A stretch of DNA of 26,334 nucleotides, taken from IMG/VR virus record IMGVR_UViG_3300030329_003943, positions 1,439 through 27,772 of that record; one strand, written 5' to 3'. The number at the start of each line of letters is the position of its first letter. Positions within the stretch are counted from its first letter, which is position 1. This DNA comes from a virus. The notes below the pieces were generated by a model that worked only from the letters and a program-made list of their open reading frames with translations, searched no databases and was not told the origin of the DNA. The translations under genes and the position numbers were made by a program. This document shows, piece by piece, positions 1-15,016 of this stretch.

Positions 1-1
1 A

Positions 2-325
2 GCCGCGTCAGATTTATCGAGGAACCGGTATAACGAGGCGAAAGAGGCGAAGACTGAAGTTAGGCGCGTACGCAGAGACTTGGTCACGATTTCGCGCAAA
101 CAAAAAGCGCGAGAAGAGGCATCCAAAGCGGGTTATTGGTCCGGTGGCGCTGCTGTATGTGTCGCGCTTTTCTACGAGATTTGCAAGGCGACGAACCAGT
201 GGCCTGGTGGTAGGCAGTACGAGTCAGTTTGGACCCATGAGGCGATGGTATCGGCGCTAACGTTTTTAACGACAGCACTATTTGCGGCGGCGTATAAATC
301 AATGCACCCCGAAAGCAAACAATAA
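2..325 (+). CDS. Small membrane protein, holin-like, 5'-partial
   Basis: The frame is open from the left edge, so the true start may lie outside the window; an internal TTG at 80 is the first start-like codon but has no good ribosome site. The visible 107 residues have a charged, Lys/Arg/Glu-rich N-terminal part, then two hydrophobic segments (around GYWSGGAAVCVALFYEI and AMVSALTFLTTALFAAAY) separated by a polar loop, and a short hydrophilic tail. Two membrane segments in a small phage protein next to other tiny membrane genes fit a class II holin, but no family motif is recognised. The stop overlaps the next start by one base (TAATG), which implies translational coupling. Function is inferred from size, topology and neighbours only. 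Confidence 0.6.
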   Translation, partial: AASDLSRNRYNEAKEAKTEVRRVRRDLVTISRKQKAREEASKAGYWSGGAAVCVALFYEICKATNQWPGGRQYESVWTHEAMVSALTFLTTALFAAAYKSMHPESKQ

Positions 326-561
326 TGGACCCTGGAACAGATCCTGTATCGATGCTGGTTACCGGCGGCGGCGGTTTAGGCGGCGGCGCTATCGGCGGTT
401 ACCTGCTCTCGCGTGTGTTAAGCAACGGCAAGGGCAACGACAACGCCGACCTTAAAAACGAATTAGCCGGTATCGGCCACAAATTAGACAACACCAACGA
501 GCTACTTAACGAGCTACTACGCAGTCAGGCCCGATTAGAGGGCATCCTAGCCAACAAATAA
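325..561 (+). CDS. Small protein with one membrane segment and a coiled coil
   Basis: 78 residues. A glycine-rich hydrophobic segment (about residues 10-32, containing GGGGLGGGAIGGYLLSRVL) is followed by a polar heptad-like helix (residues 40-76) rich in Asn, Leu and Glu. This topology, an N-terminal membrane anchor plus a coiled coil, is seen in phage spanin- or holin-associated proteins, but no motif proves that. It starts inside the stop codon of the preceding gene and ends 9 bases before the next one, so it belongs to the same transcript. Function unknown. Confidence 0.6.
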   Translation: MDPGTDPVSMLVTGGGGLGGGAIGGYLLSRVLSNGKGNDNADLKNELAGIGHKLDNTNELLNELLRSQARLEGILANK

Positions 562-570
562 GGAGACGAG

Positions 571-789
571 ATGGCAGACCGTTTAAACGACCGCATCGAA
601 GAGATGGCAGCAAACCAGCAAGAAGCGGCCCAGCAGCTACAAGCGGCCCAGCAGCAGGTAGCAGAGCTTACGGCGCTACTACAGCGTCAGACGGGCGCTC
701 TGACGGCCCTACGGCAGCTACAGGACGACGAGGCTGCGGCCAGCAACGGCGTAGCGGCAGCAGAGGAACTGGAGGCGATCACAGGATGA
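571..789 (+). CDS. Short Gln/Ala-rich coiled-coil protein
   Basis: 72 residues preceded by a good ribosome site (AAGGAG, 561-566). Nearly the whole chain is predicted helix with heptad spacing of Leu and Ala and many Gln and Glu residues (for example QQLQAAQQQVAELTALLQRQ). There is no signal peptide or membrane segment. The 3' end overlaps the next start by four bases (ATGA), so the two are probably translated together. It may be a structural or lysis accessory protein; no family was recognised. Confidence 0.6.
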   Translation: MADRLNDRIEEMAANQQEAAQQLQAAQQQVAELTALLQRQTGALTALRQLQDDEAAASNGVAAAEELEAITG

Positions 790-956
790 AGATACTAAAG
801 CAGATTGGCGAGAAGGTAGCCAGCCGCAAGCTGGCTGTGACGGCGGTGGTCGGTGCTGCTGCCGCTACCGGCGCAGTCGAGTTGACCTGGCCGATGGCAG
901 CAGTGGCGATAGCGTATGTCGTCAGTCAGGCGGTAGTAGACGCACGGACGCACTAA
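786..956 (+). CDS. 56-residue membrane protein, holin-like
   Basis: Starts with ATG at 786 overlapping the previous stop (ATGA). The protein has a basic N terminus (MKILKQIGEKVASRK), a small-residue hydrophobic helix (LAVTAVVGAAAATGAV), a short turn with Trp-Pro, and a second hydrophobic helix (AAVAIAYVVSQAVV), ending in a short charged tail. Two short membrane hairpins in 56 residues resemble small phage holins. It is the last gene of this rightward cluster, and the noncoding ParA leader follows immediately. Confidence 0.6.
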   Translation: MKILKQIGEKVASRKLAVTAVVGAAAATGAVELTWPMAAVAIAYVVSQAVVDARTH

Positions 957-965
957 AAAAAATTG

Positions 966-995
966 TTGGCGTATTAATTAGATTTTCCGTATAAT
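966..995 (+). promoter_or_regulatory. Strong sigma70-type promoter
   Basis: -35 TTGGCG (966-971) and a perfect -10 TATAAT (990-995) are separated by 18 bases. The predicted start is near 1002. No coding region lies directly downstream; the transcript enters a series of hairpins and an intrinsic terminator. This is the promoter for the small RNA and, on readthrough, for the ParA leader. Confidence 0.7.
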
Positions 996-1001
996 CGGAG
1001 C

Positions 1002-1156
1002 AGAACAAAAAAATGGGTGCGAATAGCGCAAACTATTCACACCCTGAGAATCGAACCATACAAGGGTGGTTGTTTCTCAATATTTAATTTAATGTAGTAA
1101 AAATTAAAATTAAACACAACCACCCTGCCGTCGTTAGCCAGACGCAGGGTTTTTTT
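1002..1156 (+). ncRNA. Candidate ~155-nt small RNA or attenuated leader
   Basis: The start is set by the promoter at 966-995 and the end by the terminator. Hairpin 1 (1015-1044) pairs GGGTG with CACCC and GAATAG with CTATTC around a CGCAAA loop. Hairpin 2 (1064-1125) pairs GGGTGGTTGT perfectly with ACAACCACCC and has an A/T-rich inner stem (1083-1093 with 1103-1114). Hairpin 3 is the terminator (1123-1156). The last three bases of hairpin 2 (CCC, 1123-1125) are also the first bases of the terminator stem, so the two compete. It could be a free small RNA or an attenuator controlling the partition genes. No RNA family was recognised. Confidence 0.5.
1123..1156 (+). terminator. Intrinsic terminator
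   Basis: Stem CCCTGCCGTC (1123-1132) against GACGCAGGG (1141-1149) with one bulged C and an 8-base loop, followed by seven T (1150-1156). It would end transcripts from the promoter at 966-995 unless the overlapping hairpin 2 forms first. Confidence 0.7.
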
Positions 1157-1689
1157 GTGTCTACTGCTAACGGCATCGACTAGCGGTGGATTGCGTAGCC
1201 TGCTCCAGCGCCGCTAGTGGCAGTGTCGCTACTGGAGGGCGTGGTAAGCGACGACCTAGCCGAAAGCAGGAGAGGTGCCACACATGGGCTTGGTGCCAGA
1301 GTCCTTAAGCAGCCTGCGTAGTCTAGCGCGGCACCTGCGCTGGATCGCCTTGACCGAGCGACTCGTCCGAATTGGCGATGGCAAAGCGGTTAACGCGCAC
1401 GGCTAGCTCGATGGTCCTAACTACTGGATTGTCGGGGCTAGAATCGCCGTGCCTATTCACTCACGATCTGAACCGATTGGCGGTGGCGTTATCGATGGTA
1501 TGCGGAGCTAGACGCCGCAAGAAGCGAGCGCAGCGAGTCCTGGAGGCCCGATTCTGGTACGTGGTTGCGCCGAAGTACTTGTACAGTGCTAGCCTCGTTT
1601 AGCTTAGAAATCGGTAGGGCAATGTACAACTTTTCTGGATTTCGGGTTTTCTGGCTTTCCATTTTTCTGTTTTTCTAAGGAGGCTTTTA
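1157..1689 (+). other. Structured noncoding stretch, probable long ParA leader
   Basis: No convincing gene. A 76-codon open frame here (1372-1602) has no ribosome site and an unnatural composition. Complementary segments tile the stretch: CCTGCT (1199-1204) with AGCAGG (1265-1270); CTCCAG (1203-1208) with CTGGAG (1232-1237); AGGTGCC (1273-1279) with GGCACCT (1330-1336); ATCGCC (1344-1349) with GGCGAT (1374-1379), enclosing CGAG/CTCG; CACGGC (1398-1403) with GCCGTG (1446-1451); TGCGG (1501-1505) with CCGCA (1515-1519); and CCGATT with AATCGG near 1548-1615. The last 60 bases are pyrimidine-rich, followed by an AAGGAGG ribosome site at 1677-1683. A large structured RNA or a long regulatory 5' leader is possible. 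Confidence 0.4.
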
Positions 1690-2343
1690 ATGGCTTTGAT
1701 CATATCGTGCGTCGCTCAGAAAGGCGGCGTGGGCAAATCGACGTTAGCGCGGCTGATAGCGCGTGAGTACGCCGCTAACGAGTGGCAGGTCAAGATTGCG
1801 GATATGGATCTGCAACAAGGCACCAGCTACAGTTGGCACCAGCGGAGGCTGCAAGCAGGTATAACGCCGGTGTTGTCCGTTGAGCAGTTTAATAGCGTCG
1901 AAAGTGCGTTGAGGGCGGCTCAAGCTGTCGATCTGCTCGTCTTCGATGGCGCTCCAGCCGCTGATCGCCAGACGCGTGAGATCGCCGCACAGAGCGATCT
2001 GGTCATCATCCCAACGTCGCTATCGCTCGATGACCTGGAGCCTACCGTGCGTCTGGCCCATGCGCTCCGGCAGCACTGCGACGCCAGGCGCTTGTGCTTG
2101 AGCCTTTGTCGCGTCGGCAACTCAAAACCGGAGCTAAACGAAGCCATCGAGTATCTGAATGAGACGCCCTACCACCTGCTGGCAGGACACCTGCTGGAAA
2201 AAACAGGGTATCGCAGGGCTTTTGACGCTGGCCGAGCAGCAACAGAAACGACGTTTTACAGTCTCAATGAAAAAGCTGATCAACTCGCTCAGTCTATCGT
2301 TGATCGCATCGAGGGTTCATATTCGGAGGTGGCAAATGGCTAA
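1690..2343 (+). CDS. parA: ParA-family partition ATPase
   Basis: 217 residues preceded by AAGGAGG at ideal distance. It has the deviant Walker A motif KGGVGKST (residues 11-18), the switch region ADMDLQQG (37-44) and a hydrophobic strand ending LLVFDGAP (82-89) for Walker B. It lacks an N-terminal DNA-binding domain, and the short length matches type Ib plasmid ParA proteins (ParF-like). These ATPases form ATP-dependent patterns on the nucleoid that move and space plasmid copies. The gene overlaps the following ribbon-helix-helix gene by 8 bases, the usual parF-parG layout. In a phage it suggests that the prophage is kept as a low-copy plasmid. Confidence 0.9.
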   Translation: MALIISCVAQKGGVGKSTLARLIAREYAANEWQVKIADMDLQQGTSYSWHQRRLQAGITPVLSVEQFNSVESALRAAQAVDLLVFDGAPAADRQTREIAAQSDLVIIPTSLSLDDLEPTVRLAHALRQHCDARRLCLSLCRVGNSKPELNEAIEYLNETPYHLLAGHLLEKTGYRRAFDAGRAATETTFYSLNEKADQLAQSIVDRIEGSYSEVANG

Positions 2344-2581
2344 GGCGCAAAAGCCCAAAAAAGGGGTGCCGCCAGGAGATGCGTTTCCTAGCTTGAAAGA
2401 GACGCGTCAGCCCAGCGCAGATTATGTGGGGTTAAATTTTAAAGTAACTAAGGAGTTCGCTAAAAGCTTTAAACAGGCGGCTCTGTTAGAAGATATGAAG
2501 CTGAATGAGTATCTCAGGCATCTGTTTTACCAAGCAGAAAACCAGAAAGACAAAAAGCCAGAAATACAGACAAGCGCATAA
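2336..2581 (+). CDS. Ribbon-helix-helix partition partner, ParG-like
   Basis: 81 residues starting at the ATG inside the end of parA, with GGAGG just upstream (2325-2329). A basic disordered N terminus (MAKAQKPKKGV) precedes a strand (YVGLNFKVT) and two helices (KEFAKSFKQAALLEDM and LNEYLRHLFYQ), the pattern of a ribbon-helix-helix fold. ParG and related centromere-binding proteins have exactly this architecture: a mobile tail that stimulates the ParA ATPase and a dimeric RHH that binds centromere repeats and represses the operon. Function is inferred from fold pattern and position. A longer in-frame version starting at 2159 would overlap most of parA and is unlikely. Confidence 0.75.
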   Translation: MAKAQKPKKGVPPGDAFPSLKETRQPSADYVGLNFKVTKEFAKSFKQAALLEDMKLNEYLRHLFYQAENQKDKKPEIQTSA

Positions 2582-2593
2582 TATATAATATGT

Positions 2594-2634
2594 AACCAAG
2601 AGAAAACATCTGTCAGGATGTTATCTTATTGGTT
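2594..2634. terminator. Hairpin between converging genes
   Basis: An interrupted inverted repeat: AACCAA (2594-2599) with TTGGTT (2629-2634) and AACATC (2605-2610) with GATGTT (2617-2622). It lies where the rightward partition pair and the leftward operon converge and overlaps the last codons of the leftward gene. There is no clear T run on either strand, so termination is plausible rather than shown. Confidence 0.35.
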
Positions 2635-2890
2635 CCTCCTGGCGCAACGGCAGCACGACGAGCCGGTAGGCGTCCGACAGTTGAATCCGGCGACGGTATT
2701 TTCCAGTGCCAGGCGTCAGGTAGCCCTTATACCGGAGTTCGCGCAGGACTCCGGTGACTGAGTTGGTCGACGTGTAGCCTAGTTGAGCCATCAGGTCGTG
2801 GTACGTCGGCGTCACTCTATGCTGTTCGATGTGGCTGATGATAGCGTCCATTAGGCGGCGTTGGCTCTTAGTGAGCGGTGGTAGGTTCAT
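2621..2890 (-). CDS. LexA-type winged-helix DNA-binding protein without peptidase domain
   Basis: 89 residues with AGGA six bases before the ATG. Residues 3-65 follow the LexA N-terminal domain closely: LTKSQRRLMDAIISHIEQH, then PTYHDLMAQLGYTSTNSVTGVLRELRYKGYL split over helix 2, the recognition helix and the wing. In LexA this domain binds SOS operators. Here the Ser-Lys peptidase domain is absent, so the protein cannot cleave itself and would not be SOS-inducible by the usual route. It is the last gene of the leftward operon and could regulate phage or host genes by competing for LexA-like sites; that role is inferred. Confidence 0.75.
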   Translation of the reverse strand: MNLPPLTKSQRRLMDAIISHIEQHRVTPTYHDLMAQLGYTSTNSVTGVLRELRYKGYLTPGTGKYRRRIQLSDAYRLVVLPLRQEEPIR

Positions 2891-2898
2891 CTAAAGTC

Positions 2899-3336
2899 CT
2901 ATCGGGTGTCGGTAGTCGTGTCGGCGGCGGCGGTGTAACCAGACGTATGCGGCAGCGACGAGAGCCACTGCCGGTATTGCCCAGGCGATAAATCGACCCA
3001 CGGTGCATCCTCACTTTTCAGATCGCAGATGGAGAGCGCATTAACGGCATCGCGCTCGACGGTGTATAAGACGATGACCATTGGCACTCGTAATGCCTGG
3101 GCTAATCGGCGCAGCTTACGACCGCTAAACTGATGCCAGATTCGGCTGGCGACAGCCTCTTTGACATCGTCGTCGATCTGGCCGGTCGTAGCGGCTGTAA
3201 GCTCGAGCACGGCGATGGGTAGCCCGTCACGATACTCGATCTGGTCGACGTCGTGTACTGCTCCGTGATCCCAGGTGTAGCGCCAGGCTTTGTAAGGCGC
3301 TGCTTTGTCGTTCCAGCCATGTCGTCGTTCTCTCAT
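2899..3336 (-). CDS. Unknown protein, possible PD-(D/E)XK nuclease-like fold
   Basis: 145 residues. The segment HDVDQIEYRDGLPIAVLELT (residues about 28-47) has the spacing of a PD-(D/E)XK nuclease core: an acidic residue, a strand turn, then a hydrophobic strand ending in Glu. The last position is Thr rather than Lys, so activity is doubtful. A basic helical segment follows (FSGRKLRRLAQAL), then another strand (VPMVIVLYTV). Phage operons for recombination often carry small resolvase- or nuclease-like proteins, which fits, but the assignment is weak. The start overlaps the stop of the gene upstream by one base. Confidence 0.6.
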   Translation of the reverse strand: MRERRHGWNDKAAPYKAWRYTWDHGAVHDVDQIEYRDGLPIAVLELTAATTGQIDDDVKEAVASRIWHQFSGRKLRRLAQALRVPMVIVLYTVERDAVNALSICDLKSEDAPWVDLSPGQYRQWLSSLPHTSGYTAAADTTTDTR

Positions 3337-3734
3337 TACTTTCTCTTAGCGGCTGCGCGACGACTTAATCGCCGCTTGTTGTCTGTTTCGTTCTCAATCT
3401 CGCTTATGATGCTTCTTATCAGCGCCTGGTCGTGCGCCATCACCTCGAGCACTTCGTAGTGCAGACGGCCTATGGTGCGCCGTATACGCGATCTGACGCG
3501 CTCTGGATCGAGGTCCAGCAGCAGGTGGTAGCAGGTGTCAGTCGTCAAGAACTGATACGCTATCACAGCACGTCGCAGGTGATGGTCACGCTCGTTGTAA
3601 AAGCGCGTGTCGTGCGCCGCTTCCAAACGCTTTTCTAAGTCGCGCCAGGCGTCATCGAGGACACCAGCCGCCAGCGCCGCATACGGGTCTGTTACGTTTC
3701 GACGCCAGGTGATGTTGCGCTTCTTCTCACCCAA
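3336..3734 (-). CDS. Unknown basic helical protein
   Basis: 132 residues, starting with TTG at 3734 with AAGGG six bases upstream; the ATG alternatives lie far downstream. The chain is highly charged and mostly helical (for example ERVRSRIRRTIGRLHYEVLE), ending in an Arg/Lys-rich tail (NKRRLSRRAAAKRK) that suggests nucleic-acid binding. It has no cysteine cluster or membrane segment. It is packed between coupled genes of the leftward operon. No family was recognised. Confidence 0.6.
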   Translation of the reverse strand: MGEKKRNITWRRNVTDPYAALAAGVLDDAWRDLEKRLEAAHDTRFYNERDHHLRRAVIAYQFLTTDTCYHLLLDLDPERVRSRIRRTIGRLHYEVLEVMAHDQALIRSIISEIENETDNKRRLSRRAAAKRK

Positions 3735-4170
3735 AGAGTTGCCCTTGGTCAGCCATTACGTCTGCGACGACGCGTGTTGCTGCGTCGTCCCACGCCGACC
3801 AGGTCTGATCCTGCTGGTTGTATTGAAACCCCGTCCTCATCAGCATCTTGTAGGTCGCTGGCGGTAGCTGCGCTGGTGGCCTGGCTTTGATCGTCAGCCT
3901 CTTCGCCGCTTCCGTGGGGTTTTCTTTGCGCTGCTGGTGGTCGTCGTTCTGGCGTTTGAGCCAGCGCACCTCCTCCTCGATTAGCTGGAGCAGCAGTCGG
4001 ACCTCCGGCGAGGTAGTCGACCCACCCGTATTCAGCCAAGCGGCCAGGCACGACGTCGCCCACTCCAGCGTCCGTGAGCTTGTTAAACTGCTCTTTTCGA
4101 TCTTGTGTTTTGAGACTAGCCTCGCTAATAACATCTCTGTCGTGTACTGCTCTGATACGCTGTCGGGCAT
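3727..4170 (-). CDS. Unknown protein overlapping the gene upstream in another frame
   Basis: 147 residues. The middle is an ordinary charged helix (LLLQLIEEEVRWLKRQNDDH) and the C-terminal part looks like a compact domain (KMLMRTGFQYNQQDQTWSAW followed by DDAATRVVADVMADQGQLF). Composition is protein-like throughout, whereas the competing frame over the same DNA becomes Pro/Gly/Arg-rich. So this frame is probably the coding one downstream of about 4080. It shares some 420 bases with the 218-codon frame that begins at 4405, with a weak ribosome site. It may be an independent gene or the C-terminal part of a frameshifted product. Confidence 0.55.
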   Translation of the reverse strand: MPDSVSEQYTTEMLLARLVSKHKIEKSSLTSSRTLEWATSCLAAWLNTGGSTTSPEVRLLLQLIEEEVRWLKRQNDDHQQRKENPTEAAKRLTIKARPPAQLPPATYKMLMRTGFQYNQQDQTWSAWDDAATRVVADVMADQGQLFG

Positions 4171-4405
4171 TCTTTACCATGTTTTCCAGTAGTTCACCGG
4201 CGCAGTGAAACGACGCACCGTCGGGTAGGTAGTAGGTATAGACCGCAAACTTGCGCTTACGGGTATGGAGCAGGTCATGCTCGTTGGCCGCGCCAAAGCT
4301 GTAGCCGTACTTGAGGTCGAGGTAGAGCGTGTGCTTTGAAAACCTCTCCAGGTCAAGCCCGTCGATCAGATCGATAGCCTCTTTGAGTGTGTTGGCAGTG
4401 TTCAT
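3749..4405 (-). CDS. Unknown protein; N-terminal half credible, C-terminal half doubtful
   Basis: 218 codons with an AGAGGG ribosome site before the ATG. Residues 1 to about 110 look real: a helical start (TLKEAIDLIDGLDLERFS), strands with aromatic residues (LYLDLKYGYSF, KFAVYTYYLPDGASFHC) and an amphipathic helix (ELLENMVKNARQRIRAV). From about residue 115 the sequence turns Pro/Gly/Ala/Arg-rich, typical of an out-of-frame read, while the +1 frame at the same place encodes a good protein. Either two genes overlap deeply, or a frameshift (programmed or sequence error) joins this N terminus to the 147-residue frame ending at 3727. No family was recognised. Confidence 0.5.
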   Translation of the reverse strand: MNTANTLKEAIDLIDGLDLERFSKHTLYLDLKYGYSFGAANEHDLLHTRKRKFAVYTYYLPDGASFHCAGELLENMVKNARQRIRAVHDRDVISEASLKTQDRKEQFNKLTDAGVGDVVPGRLAEYGWVDYLAGGPTAAPANRGGGALAQTPERRPPAAQRKPHGSGEEADDQSQATSAATASDLQDADEDGVSIQPAGSDLVGVGRRSNTRRRRRNG

Positions 4406-5372: not shown

Positions 5373-6830
5373 TCATCGCAGATGCTCTTGCGATGGCAGG
5401 TAGCGCAGCGCATCCGGTACACGAGCAGGAACGCTCGTACACTGGCCTGGATAGTCACGTTGCCGTTCAAAGAGGTTCGTCTTCTCGTAGATCCTGCATT
5501 CGGCATCGGCGGCTTTGTTTTCCAGGTCGCGTATCCAGGCGCGAGGCGGCTTAAATTCGGGTGTCTGCGACGATGAACTGGCACCGCCCAGCACCAGCCA
5601 GTCGAACATCTCCAAGCTTTTAAACTCCAGTGGCTCAAGTAGAGGTTCGCAGGATAGCCACTTGACCGGAGCTTCGATATGCTCAAACGCTTTCTCTGCC
5701 GCAGCGATCCGCGCCTGGGTGTCTACGGAGGTGCCGACCCAGGCGTTGTCAGGAAACGCAAACTGGGCCATGCGGCTGGGAAACTTGGTCAGAAAGAGGA
5801 AGTTCCACTCCGGTGCTGCGGCGACGACGGTAAGGACAGCTTCGATCCATTCGGTCGGCACCCACTTGCCAAAAAGGTCGGCCATAGAGCAGGTGAAGAC
5901 GTTCTTCTCGCCGATGTGTTTTTCGGCGGCGGCAGGCACCTGCATATTCTGCGGTGCGGTGAGGCGGTCGGGGTAGAAGACCGGCGCAAAGCGGTCGCCT
6001 GGCAGGTAGTCATAGAAGCGGTTGGCGATGTCGCGTGCGTAGCAGTAGGGGCAGTTGTGCTTACAGCCGGTAACGGGGTTCCATGTCCATAGCGCCCACT
6101 CGACATTGTCGTTGGTGCGATTGTACTTGTGATCGCTGTTGGTAGGCGTTAGCGCCGCCCAACGCTCTAATTCAGCGAGGTCCGACCAGGCATCGAGGGT
6201 GATGTAGTTTATCTCTGGCGGTGCCTTGTCGGGTGCTGGCGGCAAAGCCTCACGGGCGGCCTTATAACCGGCGTGTACCGACTTCTCCAGTTGTTCGCGC
6301 ACCGCCTGCGCTGCGTCCTCATCGCCCTGCTCCTCCAGCGTGTCGATGGCGGCGACAGCTTTAGTGGCCTTTTCTATCTGCCGACCGCTCTGGCCCAACT
6401 GCTGACCGGCGTGATCACGAGCTTTACCTTGTGGAAAATTTTCCACAAGGTTGGGCGTAAGATCATGTCGAGTGCCTGCTCGTCTCTTTGCTCGTTCTCT
6501 CTCGATGTCGAGTAGCAACTGGGCTTCGCGGCCTAACTGCTCGTTGGTCTTCTGGCGCTGACGATTGGCTTCGACGAGCGCCTCCTGAATCTTTAACTCG
6601 TCATCGGATTGAAAGATGTGTACCGGCACCGTCGGCATCGCCAACCGCTGGGCGGCGTGCCAGCGGCGGTGGCCGCTGATGATGCGGTAGTCGCGGGTGA
6701 TCAGCAGGGGCGTCAGCAAGCCCTTCTCGTCGATGCTGGCGACCAGTTCATCACTAGCCTGGTCAGCGTAGATGCGCTCGTTGTCAGGATGGGGCCGCAG
6801 CTTCTCTACGGGGCAATTAATCGTCTCCAT
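5373..6830 (-). CDS. ParB-like domain fused to a DUF5131 (phage Gp37/Gp68) three-Cys domain
   Basis: 485 residues with AAGGA before the ATG. Residues 1-110 are a ParB/Srx-type domain (VEKLRPHPDN, then the nucleotide-binding box ISGHRRWHAAQRL at 51-63). Residues 135-200 resemble the helix-turn-helix region of ParB proteins. Residues 240-470 are DUF5131: WNPVTGCKHNCPYCYAR with C256, C260 and C263 in CxxxCxxC spacing, then FTCSMADLFGKWVP (312-325), FLFLTKFPSRM (344-354) and WLSCEPLLEPL (391-401). The Cys spacing and motif order are those of radical-SAM-like proteins, suggesting an iron-sulfur cluster. The substrate is unknown. The partner methyltransferase TcmP lies directly upstream in the operon. 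The ParB part may target DNA or use CTP; this is inferred. Confidence 0.85.
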   Translation of the reverse strand: METINCPVEKLRPHPDNERIYADQASDELVASIDEKGLLTPLLITRDYRIISGHRRWHAAQRLAMPTVPVHIFQSDDELKIQEALVEANRQRQKTNEQLGREAQLLLDIERERAKRRAGTRHDLTPNLVENFPQGKARDHAGQQLGQSGRQIEKATKAVAAIDTLEEQGDEDAAQAVREQLEKSVHAGYKAAREALPPAPDKAPPEINYITLDAWSDLAELERWAALTPTNSDHKYNRTNDNVEWALWTWNPVTGCKHNCPYCYARDIANRFYDYLPGDRFAPVFYPDRLTAPQNMQVPAAAEKHIGEKNVFTCSMADLFGKWVPTEWIEAVLTVVAAAPEWNFLFLTKFPSRMAQFAFPDNAWVGTSVDTQARIAAAEKAFEHIEAPVKWLSCEPLLEPLEFKSLEMFDWLVLGGASSSSQTPEFKPPRAWIRDLENKAADAECRIYEKTNLFERQRDYPGQCTSVPARVPDALRYLPSQEHLR

Positions 6831-10128: not shown

Positions 10129-10356
10129 TTAGTCTGAATGTAGCATTTCCACCGCCGGACGCAACGCCAAAAGCACCTGCGCCAATCGCCTCGCCGGCCC
10201 AGGCACTTGGATCTCGCCTCTTTCCCAGCGGCCTACGGTGATGAGTGTGACGCCCATCGTCGAGGCGAACTGCGTCTGCGTCTGGCCCAGGTGCTGCCGC
10301 AGACGCCTGATGGCGTCGCCGTTCATCTCGTCAAGCTTGTCGTTGTCGAGCTTCAT
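10129..10356 (-). CDS. Small XRE-type helix-turn-helix protein
   Basis: 75 residues, with its ATG overlapping the integrase stop (TAATG) and AGAGGAGG upstream. Residues 14-65 form an XRE helix-turn-helix (GDAIRRLRQHLGQTQTQFAS, then TMGVTLITVGRWERGEIQVP), with the typical RWERG turn. Such short proteins beside integrases serve as excision or lysogeny regulators (Cro-, Cox- or YiaG-like); which applies here is inferred from position. It is the last gene of the operon, just before the terminator. Confidence 0.75.
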   Translation of the reverse strand: MKLDNDKLDEMNGDAIRRLRQHLGQTQTQFASTMGVTLITVGRWERGEIQVPGPARRLAQVLLALRPAVEMLHSD

Positions 10357-11312
10357 TATGCGTCCTCCTCTTGGTTTGGGTTAGTGGATGCGGCGACGCT
10401 ATCTATGTTGATGTAATCCGTCGCGTTGTCCTCAAGCCGGTTCCGGTCGTCGTAATACCTCATCGTCGTCTTGAGGTCGGCATGGCGCAGATGACCCTGC
10501 ACCTGTTGTGGCCTGGCACCGCCCTCCATCGCCATCGTAGCGCACGTATGCCGAAAGGAGTGGGCGGTGATGGATACACCGGCGCGGTCGCCGTAGTAGA
10601 CGGCCAGGTCGCGCACGGTGGCCTCGCGTAAGCGACCGCCGTAGTTGTTGTGGTTGATGCTGGTGTAGATGTAATCGCTTTCGATGCCAGCCTCGGTAGC
10701 CGCCTCGCGCCAGACCTCGATAGCTTCGACGACGACCGGCGCAAGTTTTACGTGCTGAATGACGCCGCTCTTGGTCGCTGGCAATAGCGCGACGCTGTGT
10801 CCAGCTTCGATAATCAGATCGGACCAGCGCAGTCCAGCCGCCTCGCCGCGTCTCAAACCGGTAAAGAGCAGCGTCAACAACAGCGCGTGATCACGCCGCC
10901 CCTTGAGTGCATTGCGATGGTTCTTAGCGTCTGCCAGCATCCGATCAATCGCATCGGAATCAATCGCCTTGCCGATGGCGACGCTATCGACCTTGAATCC
11001 TTTGACAACCGCCGGATCGGCTGGGCTGACATCGACGATCCGCAGCGCGATCAACCGCCGGAAAAAAGCTCTAATCGACGTCAGCTTTCGGTTAATCGTC
11101 GTCGGTTTACGACCGGCAGCGACGAGGTCGTTGCGATAGGTTTCGACGTCCTCGATGGTGACCGACTGCGCCTGGTCGACGGTGACGATAGCGGTGCCGA
11201 AAAACTCAGCCAGGTCGCTGGCGTAGGCCGTCCTCGTCGCTGGCCTCGTCTGAGCAGAGAGGAACGGCGCGACCAGGTCAGCCGCTGGATGGGGTAGGGT
11301 AGCGAGAGTCAT
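10356..11312 (-). CDS. int: Tyrosine recombinase (phage integrase)
   Basis: 318 residues from ATG 11312, chosen because it overlaps the preceding stop by four bases and has AAAGGA upstream; a longer in-frame start at 11345 adds an Arg-rich stretch inside the neighbour. Residues 10-95 are the SAM-like core-binding domain. Residues 118-290 are the catalytic domain, with all active-site residues visible: R154 (TGLRRGE), K181 (TKSG), H251 and R254 (HSFRH), H277 (RHADLKTTMRYY) and Tyr286 as nucleophile. It is of ordinary length and intact. It would catalyse integration between attP and a host attB, which sits oddly beside a partition system. Confidence 0.93.
   Translation of the reverse strand: MTLATLPHPAADLVAPFLSAQTRPATRTAYASDLAEFFGTAIVTVDQAQSVTIEDVETYRNDLVAAGRKPTTINRKLTSIRAFFRRLIALRIVDVSPADPAVVKGFKVDSVAIGKAIDSDAIDRMLADAKNHRNALKGRRDHALLLTLLFTGLRRGEAAGLRWSDLIIEAGHSVALLPATKSGVIQHVKLAPVVVEAIEVWREAATEAGIESDYIYTSINHNNYGGRLREATVRDLAVYYGDRAGVSITAHSFRHTCATMAMEGGARPQQVQGHLRHADLKTTMRYYDDRNRLEDNATDYINIDSVAASTNPNQEEDA
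10379..10389 (-). repeat. ATCCACTAACC element, copy 2
   Basis: Minus-strand copy inside the last codons of the integrase, 23 bases upstream of the XRE gene start, followed by AGAGGAGG and its ATG. It is therefore placed like a leader element of the XRE gene. No good -35/-10 pair lies upstream. Confidence 0.6.
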
Positions 11313-11494
11313 TCGGCACCGTCCTTTCCAAGCTCTGCGACGCATTCGGCGCGGAGGTCGTCGACGAGGCTATCCAGTTCAGCCTCGTATTGGGTATGGA
11401 TGGCCGACCGCAGCGACGGGTTCACCTCGCGCTGGTAGCTGCGGTAGAGCGTTTGGATGCTGACCAAGTCGGCTAAGATCTCCTGTTTATTCAT
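11309..11494 (-). CDS. Unknown 61-residue acidic helical protein
   Basis: Starts at ATG 11494 with GGAGGG eight bases upstream; its stop overlaps the integrase start (ATGA). The chain is helical and acidic (MNKQEILADLVSIQTLYRSY, later YEAELDSLVDDLRAECVAEL) with no membrane segment. It may be an integrase accessory protein by position. No family was recognised. Confidence 0.6.
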   Translation of the reverse strand: MNKQEILADLVSIQTLYRSYQREVNPSLRSAIHTQYEAELDSLVDDLRAECVAELGKDGAE

Positions 11495-12257: not shown

Positions 12258-12446
12258 CTAGTACTCCTCGCCCAGCGACCGCACTTCGCGGTCAATAGAC
12301 ATCTGATCAGCGGTTGCCTCGCCCAACTCCTGACGGGTATGGCGGTAGCGGTTGGCATCGGTCAAACCTAGCTGCCGGTCAATAGCGTCAGCCTCGCGCT
12401 CTAATCGCGCCAGCTTCTTTTCGACGTCCTCAAGTATACGTGCCAT
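12258..12446 (-). CDS. Short coiled-coil protein
   Basis: 62 residues, first gene of the leftward operon, with AAGGAG six bases before the ATG. Residues 1-30 form an amphipathic charged helix (MARILEDVEKKLARLEREAD), followed by a second helix with many Arg and Glu. The leader of its transcript starts with ATCCACTAACC and contains two GGATCC words that can pair as a hairpin (12459-12480). Function unknown. Confidence 0.55.
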   Translation of the reverse strand: MARILEDVEKKLARLEREADAIDRQLGLTDANRYRHTRQELGEATADQMSIDREVRSLGEEY

Positions 12447-12491
12447 GCTGCTCTCCTTAGTTGTGGATCCGAAATGGATCCGGTTAGTGGA

Positions 12492-12528
12492 TGCAAGTAG
12501 TATACAACAATATGCTACATGTTGTCAA
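12492..12528 (-). promoter_or_regulatory. Leftward promoter of the integrase operon
   Basis: Minus strand: consensus -35 TTGACA (12523-12528), 18-base spacer, -10 TATACT (12499-12504). The expected start at 12492 is the first A of ATCCACTAACC (12482-12492). The spacer shares TAGCAT and flanking bases with the divergent promoter at 12738. Confidence 0.8.
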
Positions 12529-12541
12529 GACTTTTTTTTGC

Positions 12542-12614
12542 TAATCCAATCTAATTCAATCTGCTCTATCTAATCTAATCCAATCCAATCTAATCCAATC
12601 TAATCTAATTCAAG
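12542..12614. repeat. Tandem pentamer repeat (T/C)AATC
   Basis: About 14 units of five bases, mostly TAATC and CAATC with a few variants (TAATT, one TGCTC-TATC interruption), next to an eight-T run. It lies between two divergent promoters in an A/T-rich stretch. It could be an iteron array, a DNA unwinding element or binding sites for the ParG-like or XRE proteins. It encodes nothing. Confidence 0.7.
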
Positions 12615-12737
12615 TGCGGCCAGTGCTGTCGTGGTAGGGCTAAATGGCGTATTTACAGGGTCATGCGCCAGTCCGACGACGACGGCTAAACGTCGATGGT
12701 AAACGTCGATTGTTTGGCGAATGGAGAAAAAAAGATG
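12615..12737. other. Intergenic region with an 11-bp direct repeat and a hairpin
   Basis: Two copies of TAAACGTCGAT (12687-12697 and 12700-12710) are spaced 13 bases apart. Upstream, TGGCGTAT (12645-12652) pairs with ATGCGCCA (12663-12670), allowing one G-U. No open frame with a ribosome site was seen. The direct repeats lie 28 bases before the rightward -35, a good place for a regulator site. Confidence 0.4.
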
Positions 12738-12772
12738 TTGACAATATATAGCATTATGGTATATTGAATGTA
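12738..12772 (+). promoter_or_regulatory. Rightward promoter of the zinc-ribbon/Gp88 operon
   Basis: -35 TTGACA (12738-12743), 16-base spacer, -10 TATATT (12760-12765). The predicted start at 12772 is again the first A of ATCCACTAACC (12772-12782). The leader continues CTC, then GGAG (12791-12794), to the ATG at 12803. Confidence 0.75.
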
Positions 12773-12802
12773 TCCACTAACCCTCAACCTGGAGTATCTA
12801 TT

Positions 12803-13149: not shown

Positions 13150-14021
13150 TGGCGACGATGAAACGAGCGCAACAGATGACGCTAGCCAAGCTAGCTGCCG
13201 TCGGAGACGTCGCTAAATTGCGCGATGGTATATCCGATATCGTCGACGCTGGAGACAAAACAAAACGCGGAACATGGTCTTATTTTGCCAGCAAGTTTGG
13301 CGACTGGCTAGACGCCGAGATGCCGGAAGATACGCCGTTCAGTGTTTGGAGTTTACAAGGCAATACCAAGCTTCCGTTTGCCAATTTTTCGACGGCTCCG
13401 GTCGTTACGTGTCCTGGCGCCGGCGCTTGCGCCTTAGACGGATGGTGTTATTCGTTCAAGGGGTGGAGATATCCGGCGGCATTCTTGAGGCAATTGCAAA
13501 ATACGCTTTTGCTCACAAAAAGCGCCGGTCGGCGTATCGTCGCTAAAAAGACAAACGAACTACCGGCTGGCATCGATTGTCGGCTATACGTTGACGGCGA
13601 CTTTGCGACGTTAGCACAAGTCGCCTTTTGGATGTCGGCAATTAACAGCCGGTCGGATTTACGCGTTTATGGTTATAGCAAGTCATGGCGTCAATTGCTG
13701 GAGTATGACAAGATAGGCGGTTTATGGCCTGATAACTATTGCCTAAACTTGTCAAACGGCGGCAATGCTGAACACTTGCGAGACGACGTTGCAAGATTGC
13801 CGATTGTACGCGGCAATTTTCTTACCGTCGATATCGACAAACGTTTGGCCGGAAAATACGGCACAACGGCGTATAAAGCGGCCGTACGCCAAGCGGCCGC
13901 TAAAGCCGGTATTCAGCGGCCGTTTGTCTGCCCTGGCAAATGTGGCGAATGTACCCCTAAAGGTCATTTCTGCGGCCGCTCGGAGACGTCAGGCGTCGAC
14001 GTCGTGATCGGAGTTCACTAG
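13149..14021 (+). CDS. Phage Gp88-like Cys-cluster protein
   Basis: 290 residues from ATG 13149 with GGAGG upstream. An N-terminal helical part precedes the diagnostic stretch: NTKLPFANFS (72-81), TCPGAGACALDGWCYSFKG with C88, C94 and C100, then RLYVDGDF (145-152), LRVYGYSKSW (171-180), YCLNLSNGG (197-205) and FLTVDID (224-230). This order matches the Gene product 88 family of phages and mobile elements. A second cluster, CPGKCGECTPKGHFCG (C261, C265, C268, C275), sits at the C terminus. The layout parallels DUF5131 and radical-SAM-like proteins and suggests one or two metal or iron-sulfur sites. Function unknown. Confidence 0.75.
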   Translation: MATMKRAQQMTLAKLAAVGDVAKLRDGISDIVDAGDKTKRGTWSYFASKFGDWLDAEMPEDTPFSVWSLQGNTKLPFANFSTAPVVTCPGAGACALDGWCYSFKGWRYPAAFLRQLQNTLLLTKSAGRRIVAKKTNELPAGIDCRLYVDGDFATLAQVAFWMSAINSRSDLRVYGYSKSWRQLLEYDKIGGLWPDNYCLNLSNGGNAEHLRDDVARLPIVRGNFLTVDIDKRLAGKYGTTAYKAAVRQAAAKAGIQRPFVCPGKCGECTPKGHFCGRSETSGVDVVIGVH

Positions 14022-14023
14022 CC

Positions 14024-14107
14024 ATGATTGAGATACTTGTAGAGTGCAGCCCGTTCTTGCTGATGTACGTTTGCGCTGTTTGGGTTAATCGAGACGCCGA
14101 CAGCTAG
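14024..14107 (+). CDS. Tiny 27-residue membrane peptide
   Basis: Starts two bases after the Gp88-like stop, with GGAG ten bases upstream. The peptide is a single hydrophobic segment (ILVECSPFLLMYVCAVWV) with a charged end (NRDADS). It lies before the operon terminator. Its size makes it uncertain, but position and topology are gene-like. Confidence 0.35.
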   Translation: MIEILVECSPFLLMYVCAVWVNRDADS

Positions 14108-14133
14108 ACGCCAGCACCATACACGCCAGCAAC

Positions 14134-14169
14134 AAGCGCCCGACGGTTTAAACGCCGTCGGGCGCTTTT
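14134..14169 (+). terminator. Intrinsic terminator after the Gp88 operon
   Basis: Perfect stem GCGCCCGACGG (14136-14146) / CCGTCGGGCGC (14155-14165), extended by AA/TT, with an 8-base loop and TTTT. It ends the rightward transcript begun at 12772. Confidence 0.85.
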
Positions 14170-14642
14170 GTGGTTATACGCCGGTCGGATCCGACGACGG
14201 CTTGACGGCGCAACACGCAACGTGACGTGACGGCGTGATGCGGCGCTTGGCGTGTTGGTGGATATGCTAAAGCGCCAATGCATACAATCGCTCACAATCA
14301 ATTCGCGGCCGTTCAATTAGTGCGCCGACGGTCGGCCTGGCGTCGGTCGATCGGTCGGTCGCCTGGCGTCGTTTATCGGCCGGTTTGCGCCGTTTGGCGC
14401 TTATAATTGGCAATATAGCCGGCTTTTTTTGGGGCTTAGTTTCGGCTGTTTTCGTCGCCGGTTTGCCGGTCGTTTGGTCGCAGATCGTCGCATCGAGGCG
14501 AAACGACCAGGGCCGGTCCTAAACGAAGCCGAACCCGAATATACTCGCCCACGCATGATCGCCGTCAAAACACCGCCCACATGTGACCGCCGCGAAAACG
14601 CCCACGCCGCTGCTGTTGCGTCGTGACTCTCGCCGTGTACGG

Positions 14643-14876
14643 CGTCTAGCGTCGTGTGTCTCGTCGTGCTGTTGTCGGTGGGGTACGTCGAGCGGCTCGA
14701 TGTCGGTGGTGTTAGCGATGAGCCGCTCGTTGGTGTACGTACGTCTAGCGGTGGTTTAACGTCTAGCGCCGTACTTTCCTGACTATTAACGCCGTCTAAG
14801 GTACGTACACGACGTTAACGACGTCTAGCGTACGTACGGCGTTAACGTCGTCTAGACGTCGTACGGCGTACGACGT
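14643..14876. repeat. CGTCTAGCG / GTACGTAC repeat field with nested inverted repeats
   Basis: CGTCTAGCG occurs at 14643, 14742, 14760 and 14822, with variants at 14793 (CGTCTAAGG) and 14849 (CGTCTAGAC). GTACGTAC occurs at 14735, 14801 and 14830. An 11-bp inverted repeat CGACGTTAACG / CGTTAACGTCG (14810-14820, 14840-14850) encloses one unit, and ACGTCGTAC / GTACGACGT (14856-14864, 14868-14876) forms a tight cruciform. The regularity suggests protein binding sites; the purpose is unknown. Confidence 0.65.
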
Positions 14877-14964
14877 TTTACGTCGTCGCCGCCGCGCAAA
14901 GCTAACTCCGTTTGAACGCTTCGTCAACCCCTCTGGTAATTTTTTTTCATTTTTCTTCTCGATA

Positions 14965-15009
14965 CTGTCAGGATATATCCATAGACAGCGGTTCTACCCT
15001 AGCTAAATT
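14965..15009 (+). promoter_or_regulatory. Candidate late promoter with overlapping dyad
   Basis: A dyad CTGTC (14965-14969), GGATATATCC (14971-14980), GACAG (14984-14988) overlaps a possible -35 TAGACA (14982-14987). A 16-base spacer leads to -10 TAAATT (15004-15009), seven bases before the ATG at 15017. The late transcript would thus be nearly leaderless, like that of the repressor. No ordinary ribosome site precedes this ATG. Confidence 0.4.
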
Positions 15010-15016
15010 TTAGGGC

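Follow-up and report, generated by a model that had tools for sequence, protein, structure and literature searches.

Antisense attenuators are known mainly from the plasmids of Gram-positive bacteria (PMC5703833 and, in part, general knowledge), and in pT181, the bound antisense RNA sequesters the pre-emptor, after which the terminator forms (PMC5703833, PMC4878617). In cluster A mycobacteriophages, the integrase is replaced by parABS in about 20%, and most of the parABS phages lack repA, their prophage replication requiring a noncoding-RNA region proximal to parABS; Alma, LadyBird, and RedRock are non-RepA parABS mycobacteriophages with RNA-based origins (PMC7157519). Here, we describe a 190-base element in a tailed phage that we interpret from its sequence, with moderate confidence, as a countertranscribed-RNA attenuator that works like that of pT181 and lies inside a maintenance cassette replacing the integrase of the lineage.

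Source sequence and relatives

The window, which is the whole stretch of DNA analysed (26,334 nucleotides), corresponds to bases 1439–27772 of the linear, 27,772-base record IMGVR_UViG_3300030329_003943. It encodes a terminase, portal, major capsid, and tail proteins, a Cro/C1-type repressor, an XerC-like recombinase, ParA, and other phage genes. A run of ten Ns in the record bases adjoining the left edge of the window (L095, 1429–1438) indicates that the source record was scaffolded and that part of the genome is absent. Relatives of the major capsid protein numbered 252 in IMG/VR, of which 80 were fetched; among the named phages, only distant relatives of the capsid protein were found, and none were found in the GTDB genomes. 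Four small genes, g1–g4 (80–956), close the late operon, and the 190-base element adjoins g4 directly at its 3' side. The closest g1–g2 relative (G050; L082/L099 and L100) carries two diverged g1 copies near the opposite ends of a 41-kb record, which suggests permuted ends or a joined assembly.

Structure of the sense leader

The elements between g4 and the noncoding stretch that follows are listed below.

966–995, plus strand: sense promoter, TTGGCG (966–971)-18-TATAAT (990–995), start predicted at about 1002
1002–1156, plus strand: sense leader RNA, about 155 nt if terminated, a predicted promoter-to-terminator unit (fold z −5.4)
1007–1079, minus strand: predicted antisense RNA of about 72 nt, with a 5' stem–loop and a terminator stem–loop
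1015–1044, minus strand: hairpin 1, read as an intrinsic terminator for the predicted antisense RNA, with a 13-pair stem on this strand and then A and T7
1045–1079, plus strand: hairpin 2' (third hairpin), which competes with hairpin 2 and is the part of the sense RNA that the predicted antisense RNA likely targets
1064–1125, plus strand: hairpin 2, predicted antiterminator, in which the pre-emptor (1064–1073) pairs with 1116–1125
1114–1086, minus strand: antisense promoter, TTTAAT-17-TAAATT, in the AT-rich middle of hairpin 2, start predicted at about 1079
1123–1156, plus strand: intrinsic terminator, stem 1123–1149, then T7 (1150–1156)

An earlier note, made from the sequence, had read a promoter, two hairpins (1015–1044 and 1064–1125), and an intrinsic terminator on the plus strand, with nothing coding between them, and all of these were recovered. 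Across both strands of the window (about 52,600 positions), the sense promoter ranked fifth, scored with a matrix that approximates that of E. coli and may not be that of the host; the four sites that outranked it are intergenic promoter-like sites in the window. Because a general consensus scan found two promoters where 2.1 were expected, the support for this promoter comes from its perfect TATAAT, A/T-rich flank, rank, and placement, and not from the count. The RNA from 1002 to 1160 folded at −52.2 kcal/mol (z = −5.4), the terminator stem and its T-tract could be read directly, and no frame of 966–1156 resembled the genes of the phage. A leader peptide encoded by a 24-codon ORF at 1013 was rejected, as the GGAG lies upstream of the RNA start and there is no Shine–Dalgarno sequence within the transcript, and a type I toxin–antitoxin system was rejected because the sense RNA encodes no hydrophobic peptide.

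The arms of hairpin 2 (GGGTGGTTGT and ACAACCACCC) form 10 perfect pairs around an AT-rich inner stem, and its CCC at 1123–1125 is also part of the 5' arm of the terminator, an overlap of only 3 nt. The shared CCC is directly legible, and the mutual exclusion that the earlier note had drawn from it was backed by the folding ensembles of growing sense transcripts, in which hairpin 2' formed up to 1118, hairpin 2 formed in transcripts ending at 1125–1145 (P 0.94–1.0), and the terminator formed together with hairpin 2' from 1149. In silico, hairpin 2', hairpin 2, and the terminator are therefore mutually exclusive in turn. The cross-pairing of GGGTG and CACCC between the hairpins, which had also been proposed, could occur, but the ensembles do not favour it: P(hairpin 1) was 1.0 at all transcript lengths folded. 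When 1007–1079 was blocked, mimicking an antisense duplex, hairpin 2 fell to 0 and the terminator rose to 1.0. The full-length sense RNA favoured the terminator at equilibrium even without antisense; readthrough would therefore hinge on how long hairpin 2 persists kinetically, and this dependence is the main mechanistic weakness of the attenuator reading.

A predicted antisense RNA on the opposite strand

The T-tract of hairpin 1 and its stronger pairing are on the minus strand. Hairpin 1 folded at −21.3 kcal/mol on the minus strand versus −14.8 kcal/mol on the plus strand, a difference of 6.5 kcal/mol; two mismatches on the plus strand are G·U pairs on the minus strand, and the T7 there corresponds to A7 at 1007–1013 on the plus strand. 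The G·U pairing and the T-tract indicate that hairpin 1 is a terminator of leftward transcription. This minus-strand terminator, the third hairpin at 1045–1079, and the minus-strand promoter at 1114–1086 had all been missed in the earlier note.

The antisense promoter is the best minus-strand candidate in this vicinity; its score was moderate (9.3; rank 17 of about 52,600, again with a matrix that approximates that of E. coli and may not be the host's), and AT-rich sequence favours promoter matches of this kind. The predicted antisense RNA folded at −31.5 kcal/mol (z −6.8 versus mononucleotide shuffles) and covers the 5'-most ~77 nt of the sense RNA (~155 nt), with its start, at about 1079, lying at the base of the third hairpin.

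To gauge how unusual this arrangement is, we scanned for promoters with a terminator 40–220 nt downstream and required each such unit to share 50 nt or more with a similar unit on the opposite strand. One head-on overlapping pair emerged in the window, at this locus, and none in 100 block shuffles; with thresholds chosen after the locus was seen and comparison loci that are partly redundant, no pair was found among the other fetched loci, in 2.3 Mb when the promoter threshold was 8 or 7, or in 1.97 Mb when it was 9. With looser terminators, the scan yielded 19 distinct loci. Of 2000 local shuffles of 940–1200, none contained a pair at threshold 9 and one did at threshold 7. The scan, applied without alteration to pT181 as a positive control, returned the sense unit at 4103–4288 and the antisense unit at 4193–4106, and Rfam placed ctRNA_pT181 at the same pair (105.6 bits).

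Comparison with plasmid antisense systems

The leader is predicted to have the features of a pT181-type attenuator, namely a sense promoter, an intrinsic terminator, and a countertranscribed RNA with its own promoter and terminator, together with a pre-emptor pairing that, in silico, is incompatible with the terminator and is lost once the antisense region is masked. As in the repC leader/RNAI of pT181 (RF00242) and pIP501 RNAIII, the sense promoter lies upstream and the intrinsic terminator lies beyond the pre-emptor arms. In both the window, as predicted, and pT181, the antisense RNA ends 3–5 nt inside the sense start, and the antisense promoter is placed in an AT-rich hairpin between the pre-emptor arms, within the antiterminator. 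The offsets from the sense start in the window and pT181, respectively, are 5 and 3 nt for the antisense 3' end, 76 and 90 for the antisense start, and 153 and 185 for the terminator. Antisense pairing would remove the antiterminator of the window in silico, and in the folding of pT181, the terminator rose from 0.5–0.8 to about 1.0 once the antisense region was blocked. As judged from these correspondences, a pT181-like working of the attenuator is well supported at the level of sequence, and the controlling ligand is likely to be the countertranscribed RNA from the same DNA.

The locus differs from pT181 in its shorter antisense RNA (about 72 nt versus 87 nt), its 3-nt overlap between hairpin 2 and the terminator, its location in a tailed phage, and the lack of a rep gene after the terminator. 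There is neither a rep gene nor a convincing ORF directly after the terminator, the next gene being that of ParA, and no Rep was detected among the proteins scanned in this record, an incomplete linear fragment of 27.8 kb in which a rep gene may lie elsewhere. The Rfam search, to which the earlier note had looked for support, returned no family at gathering or permissive thresholds, RF00242 included. Because two defining features, the rep gene and the RF00242 match, are missing, membership of the pT181 family is not claimed.

As with ColE1 RNA I and RNA II, the predicted antisense RNA of the locus is directed against the 5' end of a long sense RNA that encodes nothing, with no rep gene found. 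ColE1 works by primer refolding, and its leader has no intrinsic terminator. No ColE1-like RNA was among the Rfam matches in the window.

A partition cassette at the integrase position

The following features lie downstream of the terminator.

1157–1689, plus strand: noncoding stretch of 533 nt, candidate origin region, which would be transcribed by readthrough
1631–1678, plus strand: six degenerate 8-bp repeats, TTTTCTGG-like (lag 8 matches 29/52, lag 16 matches 26/44)
1690–2343, plus strand: ParA partition ATPase, 217 aa (phrog_164, E 6e-32; PF13614)
2336–2581, plus strand: small ORF for a ParA partner, 81 aa (phrog_6024, E 6e-6)

The coding scores of all six frames of 1157–1690 were −0.37 or below, compared with +0.53 for the held-out gene g2 and 0.5–0.87 for the training genes. 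The same segment had no BLASTN match in phages and plasmids, a large structured RNA within it was unsupported (fold z −1.2), and searches for DnaA, IHF, and PAS motifs gave nothing convincing. A 40-codon ORF within the stretch (1284–1406) is preceded by a strong Shine–Dalgarno sequence (AGGAGAGG), and it was rejected as a gene because its hexamers are not coding-like. The repeats at 1631–1678 are probably parS, since relatives of ParA carry 8-bp arrays in the same place upstream of its gene. Small ORFs like that of the ParA partner also occur 3' of parA in Vibrio phages, and the best relative of ParA in the GTDB genomes (57%) was on a Saprospiraceae-assigned contig, where the region upstream differs. 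Elsewhere in the window, a 485-aa protein (5373–6830) combines ParB_N at the N-terminus with DUF5131 at the C-terminus, and it was absent from the ten relatives compared.

The element itself was absent from the 38 loci with a g4 relative, and none of the close relatives sought with ParA, g2, and g4 as queries carries it; the relatives therefore lend the attenuator reading no evolutionary support. The exact hairpin-2 pattern occurred nowhere in IMG/VR, and BLASTN of positions 1–4000 against phages and plasmids returned a single weak match to ParA. In the relatives, the slot after g4 usually contains a short hairpin and a convergent tyrosine integrase, although one group (G047 and G062) has only a hairpin and another (that of G018) has a phosphoesterase-like gene. 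The gene order in three relatives (G014, G058, and G064) is g4, integrase, LexA-like gene, and a homologue of the gene at 2899, and that in the window is g4, element, noncoding stretch, ParA, partner, LexA-like gene, and 2899. The par cassette thus occupies the position of the integrase cassette of the relatives. ParA was found in none of 36 relatives, a set that includes fragments and has no positive control for ParA. The XerC-like recombinase (10356–11345) could serve to integrate the phage, but it had strong matches in 14 of 36 relatives, several of them integrase-bearing, which argues that it is not a substitute for the integrase. The presence of a par gene and the element at the integrase site of the sister phages suggests that this marine temperate phage is maintained as a plasmid and not within the host chromosome.

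A conserved compound stem–loop, GGCCGTGCCGGGC...GCCCGGTGCGGC, occurs about 20–85 nt past g4 in L208, L211, and L216; it has an inner TGTGGC/GCCACG stem and no T-tract, separates the late genes from the integrase in many relatives, and is possibly a terminator, part of attP, or an RNA element.

The arrangement resembles that of Alma, LadyBird, and RedRock, in that a partition cassette takes the place of an integrase cassette just downstream of the virion genes and a noncoding RNA region of a few hundred nucleotides, predicted in the window, lies beside parA, with no RepA found among the proteins scanned in this incomplete record. However, the RNA of the mycobacteriophages runs away from parA, whereas that predicted in the window would run toward it; no attenuator is described in the mycobacteriophages, and their origins were demonstrated with deletion and plasmid assays, whereas that of the window is a candidate from sequence (PMC7157519). 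No sequence similarity to the non-RepA mycobacteriophages was detected in the phage collection. By this analogy, the window looks like an independent case in which the integrase has been replaced by parABS with an RNA-based origin.

Proposed mechanism and alternative explanations

In the mechanism that we infer, the sense RNA starts near 1002, and hairpin 2' (1045–1079) forms first and refolds into hairpin 2 (1064–1125), which would capture the CCC at the terminator's base, permitting readthrough. An antisense RNA of ~72 nt would start near 1079 and stop at hairpin 1; paired with the nascent leader, it would block hairpin 2, the terminator would fold, and transcription would stop near 1156. 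More gene copies would then mean more antisense RNA and less readthrough into 1157–1690. The readthrough transcript would probably activate or prime the replication of a plasmid-form prophage, or top up parA. Given the 533 noncoding nucleotides and the repeats before parA, the attenuator would govern transcription into a noncoding region ending at parS and parA, and in our preferred reading, the element belongs to a plasmid-maintenance cassette, where it probably sets how much transcription enters a noncoding origin region. We give a low probability to the further proposal that the prophage origin is protein-free and that its noncoding primer or activator transcript, running through 1157–1690 toward parS/parA, is throttled by antisense-induced termination; ColE1-like priming would here be combined with pT181-like attenuation, in a cassette turning an integrating tailed phage into a phage-plasmid.

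The locus might instead hold an ordinary pair of terminators, hairpin 1 for leftward transcription and 1123–1156 for the late operon, with promoter-like sites arising by chance. The relatives do have a simple hairpin between convergent genes at this place, after the last late gene, and the element directly follows g4. However, no leftward gene lies between 1160 and 2620 for hairpin 1 to stop, two promoters of high rank are directed into one 150-nt stretch, a perfect, GC-rich 10-bp stem overlaps the foot of the terminator, and the head-on arrangement did not occur in the 2.3 Mb of other loci and was all but missing from the shuffles, so we consider this explanation unlikely.

The attenuator may also be real and control readthrough into parA, adjusting the partition protein and not replication. 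The earlier note had similarly allowed for a switch of readthrough into the partition operon, and the attenuator in that proposal is supported. That parA follows as the next plus-strand gene, and that the terminator scan found no strong terminator within 1157–1689, accord with parA as the target, which is nonetheless weakly supported: parA begins after 533 noncoding nucleotides with its own Shine–Dalgarno sequence and 8-bp repeat array, none of the 95 ParA loci scanned had an attenuator of this type adjoining parA, and the relatives of ParA elsewhere have similar upstream arrays without one. We judge it about as doubtful as ordinary termination; since a parA-acting attenuator also requires an attenuator, the probabilities of the alternatives overlap in part and do not sum to one with that of the main reading.

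Phage antisense RNAs are known, lambda OOP being an example, and both predicted RNAs are short, structured, and bounded by terminators, as expected of a free trans-acting small RNA (the other option in the earlier note) or an OOP- or sar-like antisense immunity RNA. Their only second complementary targets in the window were matches of chance length, which makes a free RNA in place of a cis attenuator improbable, although the sense RNA, once terminated, might act in its own right. An attenuator controlled by a protein or metabolite (a PyrR-like or other leader, with no antisense RNA) is very improbable: PyrR (RF00515) was the best Rfam match because the three mutually exclusive hairpins, anti-antiterminator, antiterminator, and terminator, have the identical order, but its 24.1 bits (E 0.15–0.66) fall far under the gathering score of 54, no pyrimidine or other biosynthetic gene lies downstream, and hairpin 1 is built for the minus strand.

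The interpretation in the earlier note is thus partly supported. If the countertranscribed-RNA attenuator is confirmed, a phage lineage outside the actinobacteriophages would have shifted from integration to plasmid maintenance by one cassette swap, and the plasmid-maintenance cassette would gain a concrete mechanism of copy control. Finding an antisense attenuator in a tailed phage from the sea, with no rep gene behind it, would make the copy-number control of Rep-less plasmid prophages directly testable.

Other regulatory and noncoding regions of the window

Two further regions of the window were observed. At 12446–12782, divergent near-consensus promoters, TTGACA-18-TATACT on the minus strand and TTGACA-16-TATATT on the plus strand, are flanked by a 58-bp inverted repeat with 78% identity and probably constitute a repressor-controlled early switch. 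At 14020–15010, a GP88-like gene is separated from the rightward gene that follows by about 1 kb that shows no coding signal and contains many ACGT and GTCTAG repeats; part of it (about 14495–14560) is retained in four relatives (L026, L050, L055, and L032), and the stretch is possibly a cos/pac site or a lytic origin.
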